Assembly: GCF_004345365.1 (NCBI RefSeq)
Contig: NZ_SLVF01000005.1
Coordinates: forward strand, 124,001 to 188,000
Direction of reading: 5' to 3'
Source of the DNA: Kribbella sp. VKM Ac-2568
GTDB lineage: Bacteria > Actinomycetota > Actinomycetes > Propionibacteriales > Kribbellaceae
DNA length: 64,000 nt
In this document: piece after piece, positions 36,127 through 40,914 of the stretch
Layout: every line of letters starts with the position of its first letter
Position numbering within the stretch: the stretch's first letter is position 1
Made by a program: the position numbers and the translations under genes
Notes under the pieces: generated by a model
What the model was told of the DNA's origin: nothing
Databases searched by the model: none
What the model saw: the letters and a program-made list of their open reading frames with translations, nothing else

Positions 36127-36288
36127 GGCAGTTCCTTTCCGTCGGATGGATCTTCGCAGCAGAGGTCGGAGGGTGCCCGGACTTCTCGACATTTCGGAGA
36201 TCCGGCCGTCATCGCAAGAATGTCGACCGCCCGCGCCCCGGTCCGACGTACCGGCCGACAAGCTGATGCCGAACCTAAGGTGAGAGAT

Positions 36289-37128
36289 GTGAACGAGTCC
36301 GATCTGCAGCTGGCCGACGGCCGCACGCTGCACCTGTACGACACGCACCCAGGCGACGACGGCCGGCTCCCGGTGGTGTGGCACCACGGCACTCCCAACC
36401 TCGGCGCACCGCCCGCACCGCTCTTCGAGGCCTCCGACTGGCTGGGGATCCGCTGGGTGTCGTTCGACCGGCCCGGGTACGGCGGCTCCACGCCCGCGCC
36501 CGGCCGGACCATGTCATCGGTCGCGGGTGACGTGGCAGCGGTCGCCGACTCACTCGGGATCGACCGGTTCGCCGTCGTCGGCTACTCCGGCGGCGGCTCG
36601 TACGCCCTCGGCAATGCCGCTGCGCTCGGCGACCGGGTGGAGGCCGTGGTCAGCCTGGCCGGCATCGCACCGTACGACGCCGACGGGCTGGACTGGTTCG
36701 CCGGGATGGTCCCGTCGGGGGTTCTCGCGCTAGAGGCGGCGCTGCGGGGACGCGAGGCGAAGACGGTCCACGAGACCTCCGGGATCGAGTACGACCCGGA
36801 GTTCACCGCGGCCGATCTGGCCATGTTCGAGGGACCGTGGAGGTGGCTCGGCTCGGTCGCGGGACCGGCGCAGGACGCGGGACCGTACGGGCACATCGAC
36901 GACGACGTGTCCTACGTCCTCCCCTGGGGCTGCGACCCGACCTCGATCGCGGCACCGGTGCTGCTCGTGCACGGCGGCGAGGACGGCGTCATCCCGAGCA
37001 GCCACGGCGAGTGGCTCGCCGACCACCTACCGGACGCCGAACTGCGCCTGGATCCGGGCCTTGGGCACATCTCGGTACTGTCGTACGGGGAGGACGGCTT
37101 GGAGTGGATCCGCGAGCAGACCGGCTGA
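36289..37128 (+). CDS. alpha/beta hydrolase
   Basis: 279 residues. Oxyanion strand WHHGTPNLGAP, RPGYGGS loop, nucleophile elbow GYSGGGS, acid in LLVHGGEDGVIP, and His in DPGLGHISVL make a complete catalytic triad. The cap domain (about 145-215) is helical. The GTG at 36289 is supported by AAGG 8 bases upstream. The substrate is not predictable. Confidence 0.83.
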   Translation: MNESDLQLADGRTLHLYDTHPGDDGRLPVVWHHGTPNLGAPPAPLFEASDWLGIRWVSFDRPGYGGSTPAPGRTMSSVAGDVAAVADSLGIDRFAVVGYSGGGSYALGNAAALGDRVEAVVSLAGIAPYDADGLDWFAGMVPSGVLALEAALRGREAKTVHETSGIEYDPEFTAADLAMFEGPWRWLGSVAGPAQDAGPYGHIDDDVSYVLPWGCDPTSIAAPVLLVHGGEDGVIPSSHGEWLADHLPDAELRLDPGLGHISVLSYGEDGLEWIREQTG

Positions 37129-37153
37129 ACCACCGGTTGCATCGCCGAGTCCT

Positions 37154-37208
37154 GGGTACGGAGGTTCAGATGAGGCGATCAAGGGGTGTAATACGTGCTG
37201 GTGGCTGA
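37154..37208 (+). promoter_or_regulatory. kinase leader: 12-codon mini-ORF overlapping the first kinase start
   Basis: ATG at 37170 to TGA at 37206-37208 encodes MRRSRGVIRAGG. GGAGG ends five bases upstream (37160-37164), a strong ribosome binding site. The kinase GTG (37195) lies inside it in another frame. The 35-bp block 37154-37188 matches the block before the second kinase at 29 of 35 positions. Confidence 0.45.
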
Positions 37209-38751
37209 CAGGTACCAGCTGGGCGAGGTCCTCGGCCGCGGCGGGATGGGCGAGGTCTTCCGCGCTGTCGACGAGGTGCTCGGACGTCCGGTGGCAGTCA
37301 AGCTGCTGCGGCCCTTGGACCACGATCCGGCGGCGGCCGCCGAGCGGTTTCGCCGGGAGGCACGGGCCGCCGCGATCCTGAACGACACGCACGTCGTCGC
37401 CGTGTACGACTTCGGTCAGCACGGCGACCGCTCCTACCTGGTGATGGAACTGGTCGAAGGCCGCAGCGTCGCCGAGGAGCTGTCACAGACCGGGCCGCTT
37501 CCCCGCGATCGCGCGGTCGACATCATCGAACAGGCCGCCGCCGGGCTGGCCGCCGCTCACCGGCGGGACATCGTCCATCGCGACATCAAGCCCGGCAACC
37601 TGCTGCTCACGACCGACGGGACCGTGAAGATCGCGGACTTCGGGATCGCCCATCTGGCCGACGAAGGCGCCGCCACGCTGACGGTCACCGGGCAGATCAT
37701 CGGCAGCACCCATTACCTGGCCCCCGAGCGAGCGCAGGGCCGGCAGGCCGGCAAGCCGTCGGACATCTACGCACTCGGCTGCGTGCTCTACCAGCTCGTC
37801 GTCGGCCATCCGCCGTTCACGGCCGAACACCCGACGGCGATCCTCTACCAGCACGTCGACACCGAGCCGCCCCGCCCGAGCCACGTGCACCCTGAACTCG
37901 GCGGCCCGTTCGAGGCCGTGCTCCTCCGCATGCTCGCGAAGGATCCCGCGGCCCGGCCCACCGCCACCGAGATCGCCGCCGGCGCCCTCCGCGCCCCAGC
38001 CGGCACCGCGCCAACCGGCGCGGCAGGCGCAGCCGCTGCTGGACTGGCAGTGAGCGCCGCCACCCAAGAAAGCTCCCCTGCGACGCTTACCGACCTAGCT
38101 GTGCCAGCGGCTGCGGCTGTGGCTGCGGACCAGCTTGCAGGTGGCTCAGGTGGCTCAGCTGGTGAGGCCACAGACATCGCGGCTGCAGACGCCGCCGAAC
38201 CGACTCCGGACGCGGGTACGCCGACGGGCGCGCCTGCGCTGCTGAGTGGAGCGGGCCGGCGGAAACACATCTTGGTGGGGGCTGCGGCTTTGCTGGCAAC
38301 GGCCGCCGCGGTGGTCGCAGGAGTCCTGATCAACGGGGACGAGACGAAGCCTCCAGCGACGATCAACCTCGATCCCTCGCCGAGTGTCGCGCCGAGCACT
38401 CCGGGGCAGACCCCTAGGCCGACGGAGACCTCGACCAACCGGACGCAGCCGGGCGCGGTCAACCAGACGGAAAAGAGCACCCCGACCCGAAGCCCGTCCC
38501 AGCAGAGCACGCCAACGCCTGGCACCTCTCAGAGCGGCACACCCTCGACTGGTACCCCACCACCGGGCACCCAGTCGCCCAGCGCACCGACGCTAAGCAG
38601 CAACACACCCAGCGCGCCGACCCAAGGGACCCCCTCGACCAGCACCGCCTCTCCCCCGGACCCATCGCCGTCGAGCAGGCCGTCGACGAGTACCACCCCA
38701 GAGGACAACCGCCCCCCGGCTGCGAACGCCGCGGGTCCGGGCACTGACTGA
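37195..38751 (+). CDS. transmembrane serine/threonine protein kinase (PknB-type, no PASTA)
   Basis: 518 residues. Kinase domain about 7-270: glycine loop GRGGMGEVFRA, VAVK lysine, catalytic HRDIKPGN, DFG, and YLAPERAQG. An Ala/Gly-rich juxtamembrane stretch leads to one membrane span at about 357-379. The outside ~135 residues are low-complexity Pro/Thr/Ser (TPGTSQSGTPSTGTP), without PASTA repeats, perhaps glycosylated. The GTG at 37195 has AAGGGG 8 bases upstream. The next gene is a paralogue, so the pair arose by tandem duplication. Targets unknown. Confidence 0.92.
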   Translation: MLVADRYQLGEVLGRGGMGEVFRAVDEVLGRPVAVKLLRPLDHDPAAAAERFRREARAAAILNDTHVVAVYDFGQHGDRSYLVMELVEGRSVAEELSQTGPLPRDRAVDIIEQAAAGLAAAHRRDIVHRDIKPGNLLLTTDGTVKIADFGIAHLADEGAATLTVTGQIIGSTHYLAPERAQGRQAGKPSDIYALGCVLYQLVVGHPPFTAEHPTAILYQHVDTEPPRPSHVHPELGGPFEAVLLRMLAKDPAARPTATEIAAGALRAPAGTAPTGAAGAAAAGLAVSAATQESSPATLTDLAVPAAAAVAADQLAGGSGGSAGEATDIAAADAAEPTPDAGTPTGAPALLSGAGRRKHILVGAAALLATAAAVVAGVLINGDETKPPATINLDPSPSVAPSTPGQTPRPTETSTNRTQPGAVNQTEKSTPTRSPSQQSTPTPGTSQSGTPSTGTPPPGTQSPSAPTLSSNTPSAPTQGTPSTSTASPPDPSPSSRPSTSTTPEDNRPPAANAAGPGTD

Positions 38752-38791
38752 TTCGGCCGAGCGTCCCGGCCCGGTTACCCGTGTAGGCGGT

Positions 38792-38846
38792 GGGTACCGA
38801 AGTCCGGATGAGGCGATCAGGAGGTGCCACCCGTGCTCGTGGGTGA
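38792..38846 (+). promoter_or_regulatory. kinase leader: 12-codon mini-ORF overlapping the second kinase start
   Basis: ATG at 38808 to TGA at 38844-38846 encodes MRRSGGATRARG, the same length as the leader before the first kinase and matching it at seven of 12 residues. Its own ribosome site (GAAG) is weaker. GATGAGGCGATCA (38807-38819) is identical in both copies. Confidence 0.45.
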
Positions 38847-40086
38847 CAGGTATCGGCTCGGTGACCCGCTCGGGCGTGGCGGCATGGGCGAGGTGTACCG
38901 CGCCGTCGACCAGGTGCTCGACCGCCAGGTAGCGGTCAAGCTGATGCTCCCGGTCCGGAACACGCTTGCGGCAACGGAACGCTTCCAGCGTGAGGCTCGG
39001 GCGGCTGCGGCCCTGAGCGACCCGCACGTCGTCGCCGCCTTCGATTTCGGCAGCCACGGCGACGGCTTCTACCTCGCGATGGAACTGGTCGAGGGCCGCA
39101 CTGTCAGCCAGGAACTCAAGCGGTACGGACCGCTGCCAGCGGACCGCGCGGTCGACATCATCCGGCAGGCGGCGGCCGGGTTGGCGGCAGCTCATCGGGT
39201 CGGCATCGTGCACCGCGATATCAAGCCCGGCAACCTCCTGCTGGCCGACGACGGCACGGTGAAGGTCGCCGACTTCGGCATCGTGCGCTTCCTCGACGAC
39301 ACCACGACCACGCTGACAGCGACCGGCCAGATCGTCGGCACCAGCCACTACTTGTCGCCAGAACGCGCGCTCGGCAAGCCCGCCGAAGCGCCGTCAGACG
39401 TCTACGCACTGGGGTGCGTCCTGTACCAACTCGTCACCGGCCATCCACCCTTCCTGGCCGACGACCCGGCCTCGATCATGTACCAACACGTCGAGACCAC
39501 CGCAGTCCCACCCAGCGACCTCCGGTCCGAACTCTCGGACGAGTTCGACTCTTTCCTCTTCTGGCTACTAGCCAAGGACCCCACACAGCGCCCCACCGCA
39601 GCCCAGATCGCCAACGGCGCAAGGCCTCCAGTCACCGTCCACCCGACCGAGGCGGCAACCACGGAGTCCATCGCTCTGCCCTCCGAGGCCGACACTCAGC
39701 CTGTTGAAGCGCCACCTTTCGAGGTGTCTCGCCGGCCATCCCGGAAGCTCCTGGCGACCGCGACCGCGGGCGCGACAGTCGCACTCGCGATCGCCGCAAC
39801 TGTGGGAATCCTCCTCGACGCCAACACCCTCAAGGCTCCCGCCACCAGCAACCTCGGCCCCGACTCCAGCGCCACCACCCCCGCCCCCAAGCCGAGCACC
39901 CCCAAGACCACCACCCCCAAGGCGGCCCCAACGCCGTCCCAGACAGTGGCCGGAACCTCAGCAGCCCCACAGCCGACCGCCCGTTCCACCCAGCCCAGCA
40001 ACACCAGCAAGCCCACCAAGACCCCGCCAACCAAGGGCCCGAAGAAGCCGAAACCTTCAAAGCCGCCACACGGTGGGAAGCCTTGA
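38833..40086 (+). CDS. transmembrane serine/threonine protein kinase (paralogue of the preceding gene)
   Basis: 417 residues. Kinase motifs are intact: GRGGMGEVYRA, VAVK, HRDIKPGN, DFG, YLSPERALG. One membrane span at about 305-328 is followed by an outside tail of ~90 residues of Pro/Lys/Thr repeats (TPKTTTPKAAPTPSQ), ending KPSKPPHGGKP. GGAGG at 38820-38824 fits the GTG at 38833 (8-base spacing) better than the GTG at 38824, and this start also matches the first kinase's MLVADRY. The tail is basic, unlike the first kinase's, and could contact anionic wall polymers (inference). Confidence 0.92.
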   Translation: MLVGDRYRLGDPLGRGGMGEVYRAVDQVLDRQVAVKLMLPVRNTLAATERFQREARAAAALSDPHVVAAFDFGSHGDGFYLAMELVEGRTVSQELKRYGPLPADRAVDIIRQAAAGLAAAHRVGIVHRDIKPGNLLLADDGTVKVADFGIVRFLDDTTTTLTATGQIVGTSHYLSPERALGKPAEAPSDVYALGCVLYQLVTGHPPFLADDPASIMYQHVETTAVPPSDLRSELSDEFDSFLFWLLAKDPTQRPTAAQIANGARPPVTVHPTEAATTESIALPSEADTQPVEAPPFEVSRRPSRKLLATATAGATVALAIAATVGILLDANTLKAPATSNLGPDSSATTPAPKPSTPKTTTPKAAPTPSQTVAGTSAAPQPTARSTQPSNTSKPTKTPPTKGPKKPKPSKPPHGGKP

Positions 40087-40218: not shown

Positions 40219-40282
40219 ATTCCAAGCAACAGCTTGACATCTGTCTAGCGTCGGGGTCATATTCCAAGCATGTCTTTGGAAT
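40219..40282 (+). promoter_or_regulatory. ArsR-gene promoter and palindromic operator spanning the start codon
   Basis: TTGACA at 40234-40239 and CATATT at 40258-40263 (18-bp spacing) form a -35/-10 pair, placing transcription start at or next to the ATG at 40270: a leaderless mRNA. The operator candidate ATTCCAA (40261-40267), 8 bases, TTGGAAT (40276-40282) overlaps the -10 box and the start codon. A further half-site ATTCCAAGC lies at 40219-40227, adjoining the -35 box. Confidence 0.65.
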
Positions 40283-40914
40283 CGGCGAATGATCCGCGTA
40301 GGCGGCGGTTGTTGGATGATCCGTTGGCTATTCGGGCGATGGCGCACCCGGTGCGGCTGGATCTGCAGGCCTTGCTGGGGAAGGAGGGGCCGTTGACCGC
40401 GGCTGACGCGGCGCGGCGGCTTGGGATCAGTCAGGCGTTGGCTTCTCATCACCTGCGGCAGCTCGCGAAGTACGACTTTGTGGAGCCGGCGCCGGGGAAG
40501 GACAACCGGGAGCGGCCCTGGCGCCTCGTTTCCACCTCGCAGTCGTGGCGGGACGCGAAGCTGAACCCCGAGGCAGCGGCTGCGGCCGACGTACTGGAGC
40601 AACTGCTGGCCGAGCGAGCCCTCGGCACCCTGGCGGACTGGCAGCAACGGCGTCCCGAAGAGGCCGAAGTCTGGCGGGAGAACGCCGGCATCGGGCACAC
40701 CGGGATCTACCTGACCGGCGACGAGTTGGCCGAGCTCGAGGAGCAGATCAGCGGACTGCTCCAGCGGTACGTCGACGAGCGGCCGATCGACGACAAGTCC
40801 ACCCGGCCGCCGGGCAGTCGCCTGGTCGACATCACCCGGATCGTCACCGTGTCGCCAGCGGACGAGCCCCTCGCCGTACAGCCGGAAGACGAGTCCGCCG
40901 AGGAGGAGAAGTGA
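40270..40914 (+). CDS. ArsR-type winged-helix regulator
   Basis: 214 residues. Winged helix at about 20-95: LAIRAMAHPVRLDLQALLGK, then AADAARRLGISQALASHHLR with recognition helix, and ERPWRLVSTSQSW wing. The C-terminal ~110 residues are helical and acidic; no metal-binding Cys pair typical of ArsR/SmtB is present, so it probably senses an organic ligand. It overlaps the MFS gene by four bases (GTGA) and likely represses both itself and the exporter through the palindrome over its own start codon. Confidence 0.86.
   Translation: MSLESANDPRRRRLLDDPLAIRAMAHPVRLDLQALLGKEGPLTAADAARRLGISQALASHHLRQLAKYDFVEPAPGKDNRERPWRLVSTSQSWRDAKLNPEAAAAADVLEQLLAERALGTLADWQQRRPEEAEVWRENAGIGHTGIYLTGDELAELEEQISGLLQRYVDERPIDDKSTRPPGSRLVDITRIVTVSPADEPLAVQPEDESAEEEK

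Follow-up and report, generated by a model that had tools for sequence, protein, structure and literature searches.

Out-of-frame mini-ORFs at the predicted mRNA 5' ends of two Kribbella Ser/Thr kinase genes, at the position where most sister genes are predicted to start leaderless

Two neighboring kinase genes, K1 (GTG at 37195) and K2 (GTG at 38833), lie in the window, the whole 64,000-nucleotide stretch of Kribbella sp. VKM Ac-2568 DNA that was analyzed, and each overlaps a 12-codon mini-ORF. We consider it reasonably likely that the mini-ORF is a 5'-terminal upstream ORF of the leaderless type, the misframed counterpart of the start used by sister kinases, with a likely mild cis tuning of kinase translation. 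The genes are ordered abhydrolase, K1, K2 and ArsR-like regulator. The features, with position, strand and basis, are as follows.

36220-37128, forward strand: alpha/beta hydrolase (abhydrolase) gene directly 5' of K1, a synteny marker (Pfam Abhydrolase_1, E 1.6e-17; matched in 38/38 genomes, partial in G002).
37135-37138, forward strand: GGTT, -35 element of the putative sigB/sigF-type promoter of K1, with a 15-nt spacer (sequence; genome pattern search).
37154-37159, forward strand: GGGTAC, -10 element of the K1 promoter (motif enrichment among 77 sister kinases).
37167-37169, forward strand: predicted K1 transcription start, 8-10 nt past the -10 hexamer (by comparison with the mapped S. coelicolor GGGTAC promoters of Table 2 in PMC8346170).
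37170-37208, forward strand: mini-ORF 1, MRRSRGVIRAGG, in a different frame from K1 and beginning with the ATG that lies at the predicted mRNA 5' end (sequence).
37181-37187, forward strand: Shine-Dalgarno-like AAGGGGT of K1 (anti-SD duplex, -10.1 kcal/mol).
37195-38751, forward strand: K1, Hanks-type Ser/Thr kinase, 518 aa (Pfam Pkinase, E 3.5e-53).
38773-38776, forward strand: GGTT, -35 element of the K2 promoter, with a 15-nt spacer (sequence; genome pattern search).
38792-38797, forward strand: GGGTAC, -10 element of the K2 promoter (sequence; motif enrichment among sisters).
38805-38807, forward strand: predicted K2 transcription start, 8-10 nt past the -10 hexamer (as for K1).
38808-38846, forward strand: mini-ORF 2, MRRSGGATRARG, out of frame with K2 (sequence).
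38819-38825, forward strand: Shine-Dalgarno AGGAGGT of K2 (anti-SD duplex, -14.7 kcal/mol).
38833-40086, forward strand: K2, Hanks-type Ser/Thr kinase, 417 aa from GTG 38833 (Pfam Pkinase, E 2.1e-54).
40270-40914, forward strand: ArsR-like HTH regulator gene, the downstream synteny marker (Pfam HTH_20, E 6.7e-11; matches in 35/38 genomes).

Mini-ORF 1 runs from ATG 37170 to TGA 37206-37208 and mini-ORF 2 from ATG 38808 to TGA 38844-38846. In both cases the kinase GTG is 25 nt past the mini-ORF ATG, the kinase reads in frame +1 relative to the mini-ORF, and the mini-ORF stop ends 14 nt inside the kinase. This arrangement, with a 12-codon mini-ORF beginning about 25 bases before each GTG and ending just inside, had been described in an earlier reading of the sequence only, and it is confirmed here, as is the identity between the two copies of a 13-bp block, GATGAGGCGATCA, at 37169-37181 and 38807-38819. 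An in-frame TAA stands two codons 5' of the K1 GTG. K2 has an alternative formal start, GTG 38824, but it is GTG 38833 that has AGGAGG before it at proper spacing. Both proteins are PknB-like and contain the protein kinase domain PF00069 (Pfam Pkinase); Pfam reported no PASTA domain in K1 or K2 at E 0.001. By eye, a long low-complexity tail rich in Ala, Pro, Thr and Ser surrounds one probable membrane segment in each (K1, 38040-38750; K2, 39640-40083).

Upstream of both kinases is GGTT-N15-GGGTAC, which has the -35, the -10 and the spacer of a SigB/SigF-type promoter, and from these elements we infer that the promoters are of the sigB/sigF type and depend on a sigma factor of that family. In the SigB-family promoters of S. 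coelicolor presented in PMC8346170, the first three G of the -10 element are almost invariant and the -35 reads GNNT/GTTT; the K1 and K2 elements resemble these GGGTAC and GNNT/GTTT sequences, the Kribbella sigma factor and start being predictions. Counting the printed letters of Table 2 in that paper, and treating the final base as the start, gives distances of 9, 8 and 10 bases for the GGGTAC promoters SCO3557p, SCO3167p and SCO5555p, and 3 to 11 for other -10 hexamers. The first base of the mini-ORF ATG is the 11th after GGGTAC, compared with published starts 8-10 nt after the hexamer (PMC8346170, Table 2), which would put the ATG within 1-3 nt of where the mRNA is predicted to begin. A leader of 1-3 nt may weaken leaderless initiation.

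Three genes in the genome lie above the curated SigBFG cut-off. The pattern GGTT-N14/17-GGGTAC-N8/10-RTG occurs 7 times in the genome and once in a reversed control; the seven places are K1, K2, two loci at which the RTG opens a frame of at least 150 codons (L261 and L264), and three others. L261 (G000:C2:744759-744796) is on the minus strand, and its GGTT-N-GGGTAC-N9/10-ATG leads straight into a frame with no stop for 150 codons or more; the product presumably resembles DUF1704 proteins, and L261 may be a further leaderless gene under the same sigma factor. The RTG frame of L264, though also open, seems to be so by chance.

The predicted promoter also bears on the ribosome-binding site that the sequence-only reading had assigned to mini-ORF 1. 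The GGAGG in question (37160-37164) directly adjoins the -10 GGGTAC and precedes the predicted transcript start, and it is not common to both genes, the second copy reading CGAAG there; the assignment is withdrawn.

We compared 38 Kribbella genomes, the source genome (G000) and 37 others of the genus. Kinase loci were gathered by DNA similarity to the K1 start, with a query that included the upstream motif, and by protein similarity to the N-terminal part of K2, a collection not driven by that motif; others were gathered as regions. All starts were aligned on the conserved xRY motif. This gave 116 distinct starts, of which 77 with strong similarity form the subfamily (bit scores from 153 upward; L168, at 143 bits, was included manually for its high rank in the protein search) and 39 with weaker similarity served as controls. 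In number, the subfamily equals the rows of the protein search with E up to 2.1e-47. In the 70 nt preceding the aligned codon, GGGTAC is found in 75 of the 77 sister kinases, against 2.6 GGGTAC expected in shuffles and 0/39 in the control kinases, and 1 more sister has GAGTAC. G(G/A/T)TT is found 14-17 nt before the hexamer in 38 of 76 genes (2.4 expected), the other 38 being without a simple -35. In a scan of genome contigs, the three closest relatives of K2 among the matches listed are all from Kribbella species, and among the best 80 matches listed, GGGTA was not found in the 110 nt before the start at the three closest non-Kribbella loci (Streptomyces, 55-58%). A partial search of the literature on Kribbella kinases found no title dealing with this arrangement.

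In 62 of the 77 sisters, an RTG placed 8-11 nt past the hexamer shares the kinase frame and is taken as the kinase start, and these 62 are predicted to have leaderless mRNAs. Most (44) have the short form RTG-x-x-x-x-R-Y, and 18 have N-terminal extensions; in these 18 sister genes the kinase N-terminus is probably 4-8 codons 5' of the usual sister start, a point that matters for annotation. The hexamer is present with no RTG at that place in 9/77, and 1/77 has no such hexamer. In the remaining 5/77, K1, K2, L039, L041 and L177, the RTG is out of frame. Four of these, K1, K2, L039 and L041, combine the out-of-frame RTG with a downstream SD-led kinase in frame +1, its inner start lying 22-25 nt past the 5' ATG. 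L039 (genome G003) has the 12-codon layout of K1 and K2, with the peptide MRRSGGTPDARC, and L041 (G009) has an 11-codon version, MRRKVGEHAGR. All four peptides share only MRR, and MRR (8) or MKR (1) is also how 9 of the 18 extended kinases begin, that is, the kinase's own N-terminus; the notion of a conserved leader peptide is thus not borne out.

In L177 (G007:C27), a GTG 8 nt past GGGTAC opens a 7-codon ORF, MSPVGRW, in the other frame; with its stop 2 nt before the ATG of the SD-led kinase, the geometry is tighter than that of K1 and K2. L026 (G037) and L078 (G014) are leadered sisters in which the kinase ATG is preceded by GATCGTCAGGAGGTGGCG, a sequence similar to GATCAGGAGGTGCC from the K2 mini-ORF leader, and in which TTG or TCG stands in place of the 5' ATG; they perhaps represent the state before or after the mini-ORF.

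From the 5' ATG to the aligned codon there are 37 nt in K1, K2 and L039, compared with 36 nt in the in-frame group with 12 residues. This one-base difference, together with a UGA followed by C or G, is what would be expected if a programmed +1 frameshift near the UGA joined the mini-ORF to the kinase and extended its N-terminus as in the in-frame sisters. We regard such a frameshift as highly improbable: all four genes have an in-frame RTG with an SD that is strong on average relative to the in-frame sisters, and K1 has the in-frame TAA two codons before its GTG. The RF2 frameshift site has an SD-like stimulator 3 nt before the UGA, and none is present at that distance here.

Synteny allows the same locus to be followed across the genus. 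A subfamily kinase directly follows the abhydrolase gene in 18 of the 38 genomes, and at this kinase the start is (i) preceded by the out-of-frame mini-ORF in 3/18 (G000, G003 and G009), (ii) extended in frame in 5/18 (G007, G010, G024, G028 and G030) and (iii) direct in 10/18 (G005, G008, G011, G014, G017, G020, G033, G035, G036 and G037). The 5' RTG is present in all 18 loci, so at one locus its frame relation to the kinase varies. In G003 the order is abhydrolase, kinase with 12-codon mini-ORF, ArsR; the ArsR-like gene had no match in 3 of the 18 genomes (G008, G028 and G036). The expectation that the mini-ORF would precede homologous kinases elsewhere therefore holds for G003 (12 codons) and G009 (11 codons) and fails at most of the syntenic loci, only 3 of the 18 genomes having it.

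The 13-bp block, GATGAGGCGATCA, is present 4 times in the 8,875,416-base (8.9 Mb) genome, with no kinase motif in 3 kb around the two copies outside K1 and K2. As a genus-wide element the block was rejected: GATGAGGCGATCANNNGGTG at no more than 1 mismatch is found in 3/38 genomes, the source genome included, and GGGTACN{8,10}ATGAGGCGATC likewise in 3/38, at kinases in G000 and G003 and, in G027, inside another reading frame without a kinase. We also weighed whether the block is conserved for a role other than translation, as DNA or as the first transcribed bases, with promoter escape or a regulator site as the reason. Its position coincides with the predicted start of transcription, and RTGAGGCGA, with the Arg codons AGG and CGA that we take to be uncommon in such genomes, recurs in several in-frame sisters. 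Set against these points, ATGAGGCGATC follows GGGTAC in only those 3/38 genomes and is absent from the 44 direct-start sisters with the same promoter, and GGGTAC-N8/11-ATGAGGCG is no commoner across the genus than in the reversed control (20 and 21 matches, respectively), which leaves conservation at the DNA level quite improbable. Most orthologous loci do not have the block, contrary to what the sequence-only reading needed, and the transcript start is predicted just upstream of the ATG, as that reading needed.

Going upstream from the kinase starts, K1 and K2 are similar as far as about the -35 GGTT, 60 nt away, and beyond it the similarity drops to background. Since the copies are homologous from about the -35 on, the equal mini-ORF lengths are not a second independent observation, and we rejected them as independent evidence. 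A recent tandem duplication as the source of the common block was not supported, because the AU test rejects a K1+K2 clade (p 4e-6). Third-position identity between K1 and K2 is 0.55 over the first 20 codons, no higher than in other 20-codon blocks (0.30-0.80).

Is the mini-ORF state kept by selection, or is it a neutral relic, in which the out-of-frame ATG is a by-product of a start-site change, occasionally translated and with no selected effect? The state is rare, occurring in only 3/18 abhydrolase-adjacent genomes and 4/77 subfamily genes (5 with L177), its peptides have nothing in common beyond MRR, and the RNA fold is not unusual, all of which would suit a relic. Leader conservation gives a divided answer. 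The K2 and G003 leaders are alike at 28/35 sites compared with 133/245 third codon positions (Fisher p=0.003), and at 19/20 in the core, though the kinases differ at a third of their residues, which argues against a relic. This constraint beyond third positions is seen for the K2/G003 pair only, one of the four pairs compared outside G009, as a relic would allow: in ungapped comparisons K1/K2 (25/35, p=0.067) and K1/G003 (20/35, p=0.57) are not clearly above third positions, and the G009 leader matches the others at 10-11/35 (K2/G009, p=0.997). Between K2 and the nearest kinase in the tree, L134, which starts in frame, 11/35 leader sites are alike, again ungapped.

The stop codon gives a further indication. 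TGA, formed by a T-ending codon before GA, stands at the mini-ORF stop site in 4/4 mini-ORF genes and 7/73 others (Fisher p 2.4e-4), or 2/2 and 7/73 when the discovery pair is removed (p about 0.013); the rows are related and these p values ignore relatedness, so that they are optimistic. Among the other genes with a GA codon at the site, TGA is found in 7/29. Without it, 3 of the 4 mini-ORFs have no stop in the next 200 codons. The position of the stop just inside the kinase may therefore be selected, and its placement in all four genes weighs against a relic.

The kinase tree points the same way. K1, K2 and L039 are in different parts of it, and besides the K1+K2 clade the AU test rejects K1+K2+L039 (p 1e-7; L041 was not put in). 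The mini-ORF layout is thus either an old feature that has persisted or one with several origins, and its being kept or regained in separate lineages is not what a relic predicts. The tree was rooted at the midpoint only, and the change between SD-led and leaderless starts may have run in either direction. Taking these points together, we judge a neutral relic somewhat unlikely.

At the inner kinase start, the SD energies of the four mini-ORF genes range from -10.1 to -14.7 kcal/mol, with a mean of -11.9. They resemble the leadered sisters in this (mean -10.8, n=10) and are lower than the in-frame extended sisters (mean -6.8, n=18) and the direct-start sisters (mean -7.1, n=44), a point in favor of the mini-ORF state being maintained. 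The ranges overlap, with 2/18 in-frame extended genes reaching -10.9 or better.

The sequence-only reading had proposed that ribosomes finishing the mini-ORF are coupled to the kinase by re-initiation, or that the leader peptide acts as a switch. In all 4 genes the stop lies near the start of the kinase, and terminating ribosomes would be left near the SD. However, the best spacing reported in PMC12548453 is -4 to +3 nt, and overlap is reported there to reduce coupling sharply, one study having seen no coupling at -25; the 14-nt overlap of K1 and K2 falls outside this range and is a poor geometry for classical coupling. The kinase also has its own SD, and the K1 and K2 leaders fold no better than shuffles (z -0.15 and +0.98, respectively), for which reason an RNA switch was rejected as well. 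With no peptide conserved, an attenuator or peptide switch fares no better, and we consider coupling or a switch improbable. The earlier interpretation as a whole is partly supported.

The 5'-terminal, misframed leaderless-type uORF remains our preferred account, and it would work as follows. A sigB/sigF-type promoter (GGTT-N15-GGGTAC) would drive both kinases, the transcript beginning about 1-3 nt before the mini-ORF ATG. An RTG at that place would normally, in the Kribbella subfamily, be the kinase's own leaderless start; in the K1, K2, G003 and G009 kinases the ATG at the 5' end is shifted by one base from the kinase frame. Ribosomes starting on it would make a peptide of 11-12 residues and stop just inside the kinase, and the kinase itself would start at the internal SD-led GTG/ATG 22-25 nt downstream. 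The start site would thus have shifted between leaderless and SD-led initiation, the mini-ORF being the out-of-frame alternative state. A ribosome on the 5' AUG would hinder, or stand by for, initiation 25 nt downstream; such competition or standby is plausible. We infer that the mini-ORF is translated and affects the kinase, the present effect being most likely a mild cis tuning of kinase translation, of a sign that is not predicted, rather than a function of the peptide.

The closest analogues are found in Escherichia coli. The mRNAs tested in PMC4965119 bound 70S ribosomes at their 5'-terminal AUG and 30S subunits at the start of the SD-led gene. The AUG of these 5'-uORFs lies 0-2 nt from the 5' end and is followed by a short ORF and an SD-led gene in another frame, an arrangement like the one predicted here. 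Removal of the upstream AUG over 13 E. coli genes had effects from +52% (mngR) to -93% (ptrB), several genes being little affected, and ptrB, the most affected, has a 5'UTR of 26 nt, close to the 26-28 nt predicted for K1 and K2; the uORFs of pcnB, xap and ptrB overlap the gene by 17, 26 and 34 nt (PMC4965119). The E. coli upstream AUGs were demonstrated by reporters and toeprints (PMC4965119), whereas the Kribbella AUGs are candidates from position, and in Kribbella, unlike the E. coli cases described there, an in-frame leaderless form exists in sisters at the same promoter position.

Mycobacteria offer a second likeness. The overlapping leaderless small ORFs among those presented by Shell et al. 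2015 (PMC4633059) have an RTG at the transcript start, a position only predicted here, and run into the annotated gene in another frame, as in K1 and K2. That class was defined by RNA-seq and ribosome profiling (PMC4633059), whereas the Kribbella mini-ORFs are candidates read from sequence. The class reported as enriched in mycobacteria in that paper is the RTGA-coupled one, to which the Kribbella mini-ORFs do not belong.

In a broader and rather unlikely version, a stress-sigma promoter with a fixed 5' RTG would have been kept across paralogous kinases while their starts moved among leaderless, extended leaderless and SD-led forms, and in the mini-ORF genes the 5' AUG would be a cis-acting switch turning kinase synthesis down or up through the balance of 70S-leaderless and 30S-SD initiation under stress. 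If the preferred account is true, leaderless, fused, SD-led and out-of-frame starts occur side by side in one family with one promoter type, the evolution of leaderless translation becomes testable, and the subfamily provides a natural series on the effect of a 5'-end AUG on an SD-led start 25 nt away in actinobacteria.

The kinase slot between the abhydrolase and ArsR genes is itself variable across the 38 genomes, with two kinase copies in the window genome. By eye, the two neighbors lie within about 215 bp of each other with no kinase in 8 genomes (G006, G015, G018, G019, G021, G022, G027 and G032), and in G012 and G026 a reverse-strand transporter-like ORF fills the gap between them.
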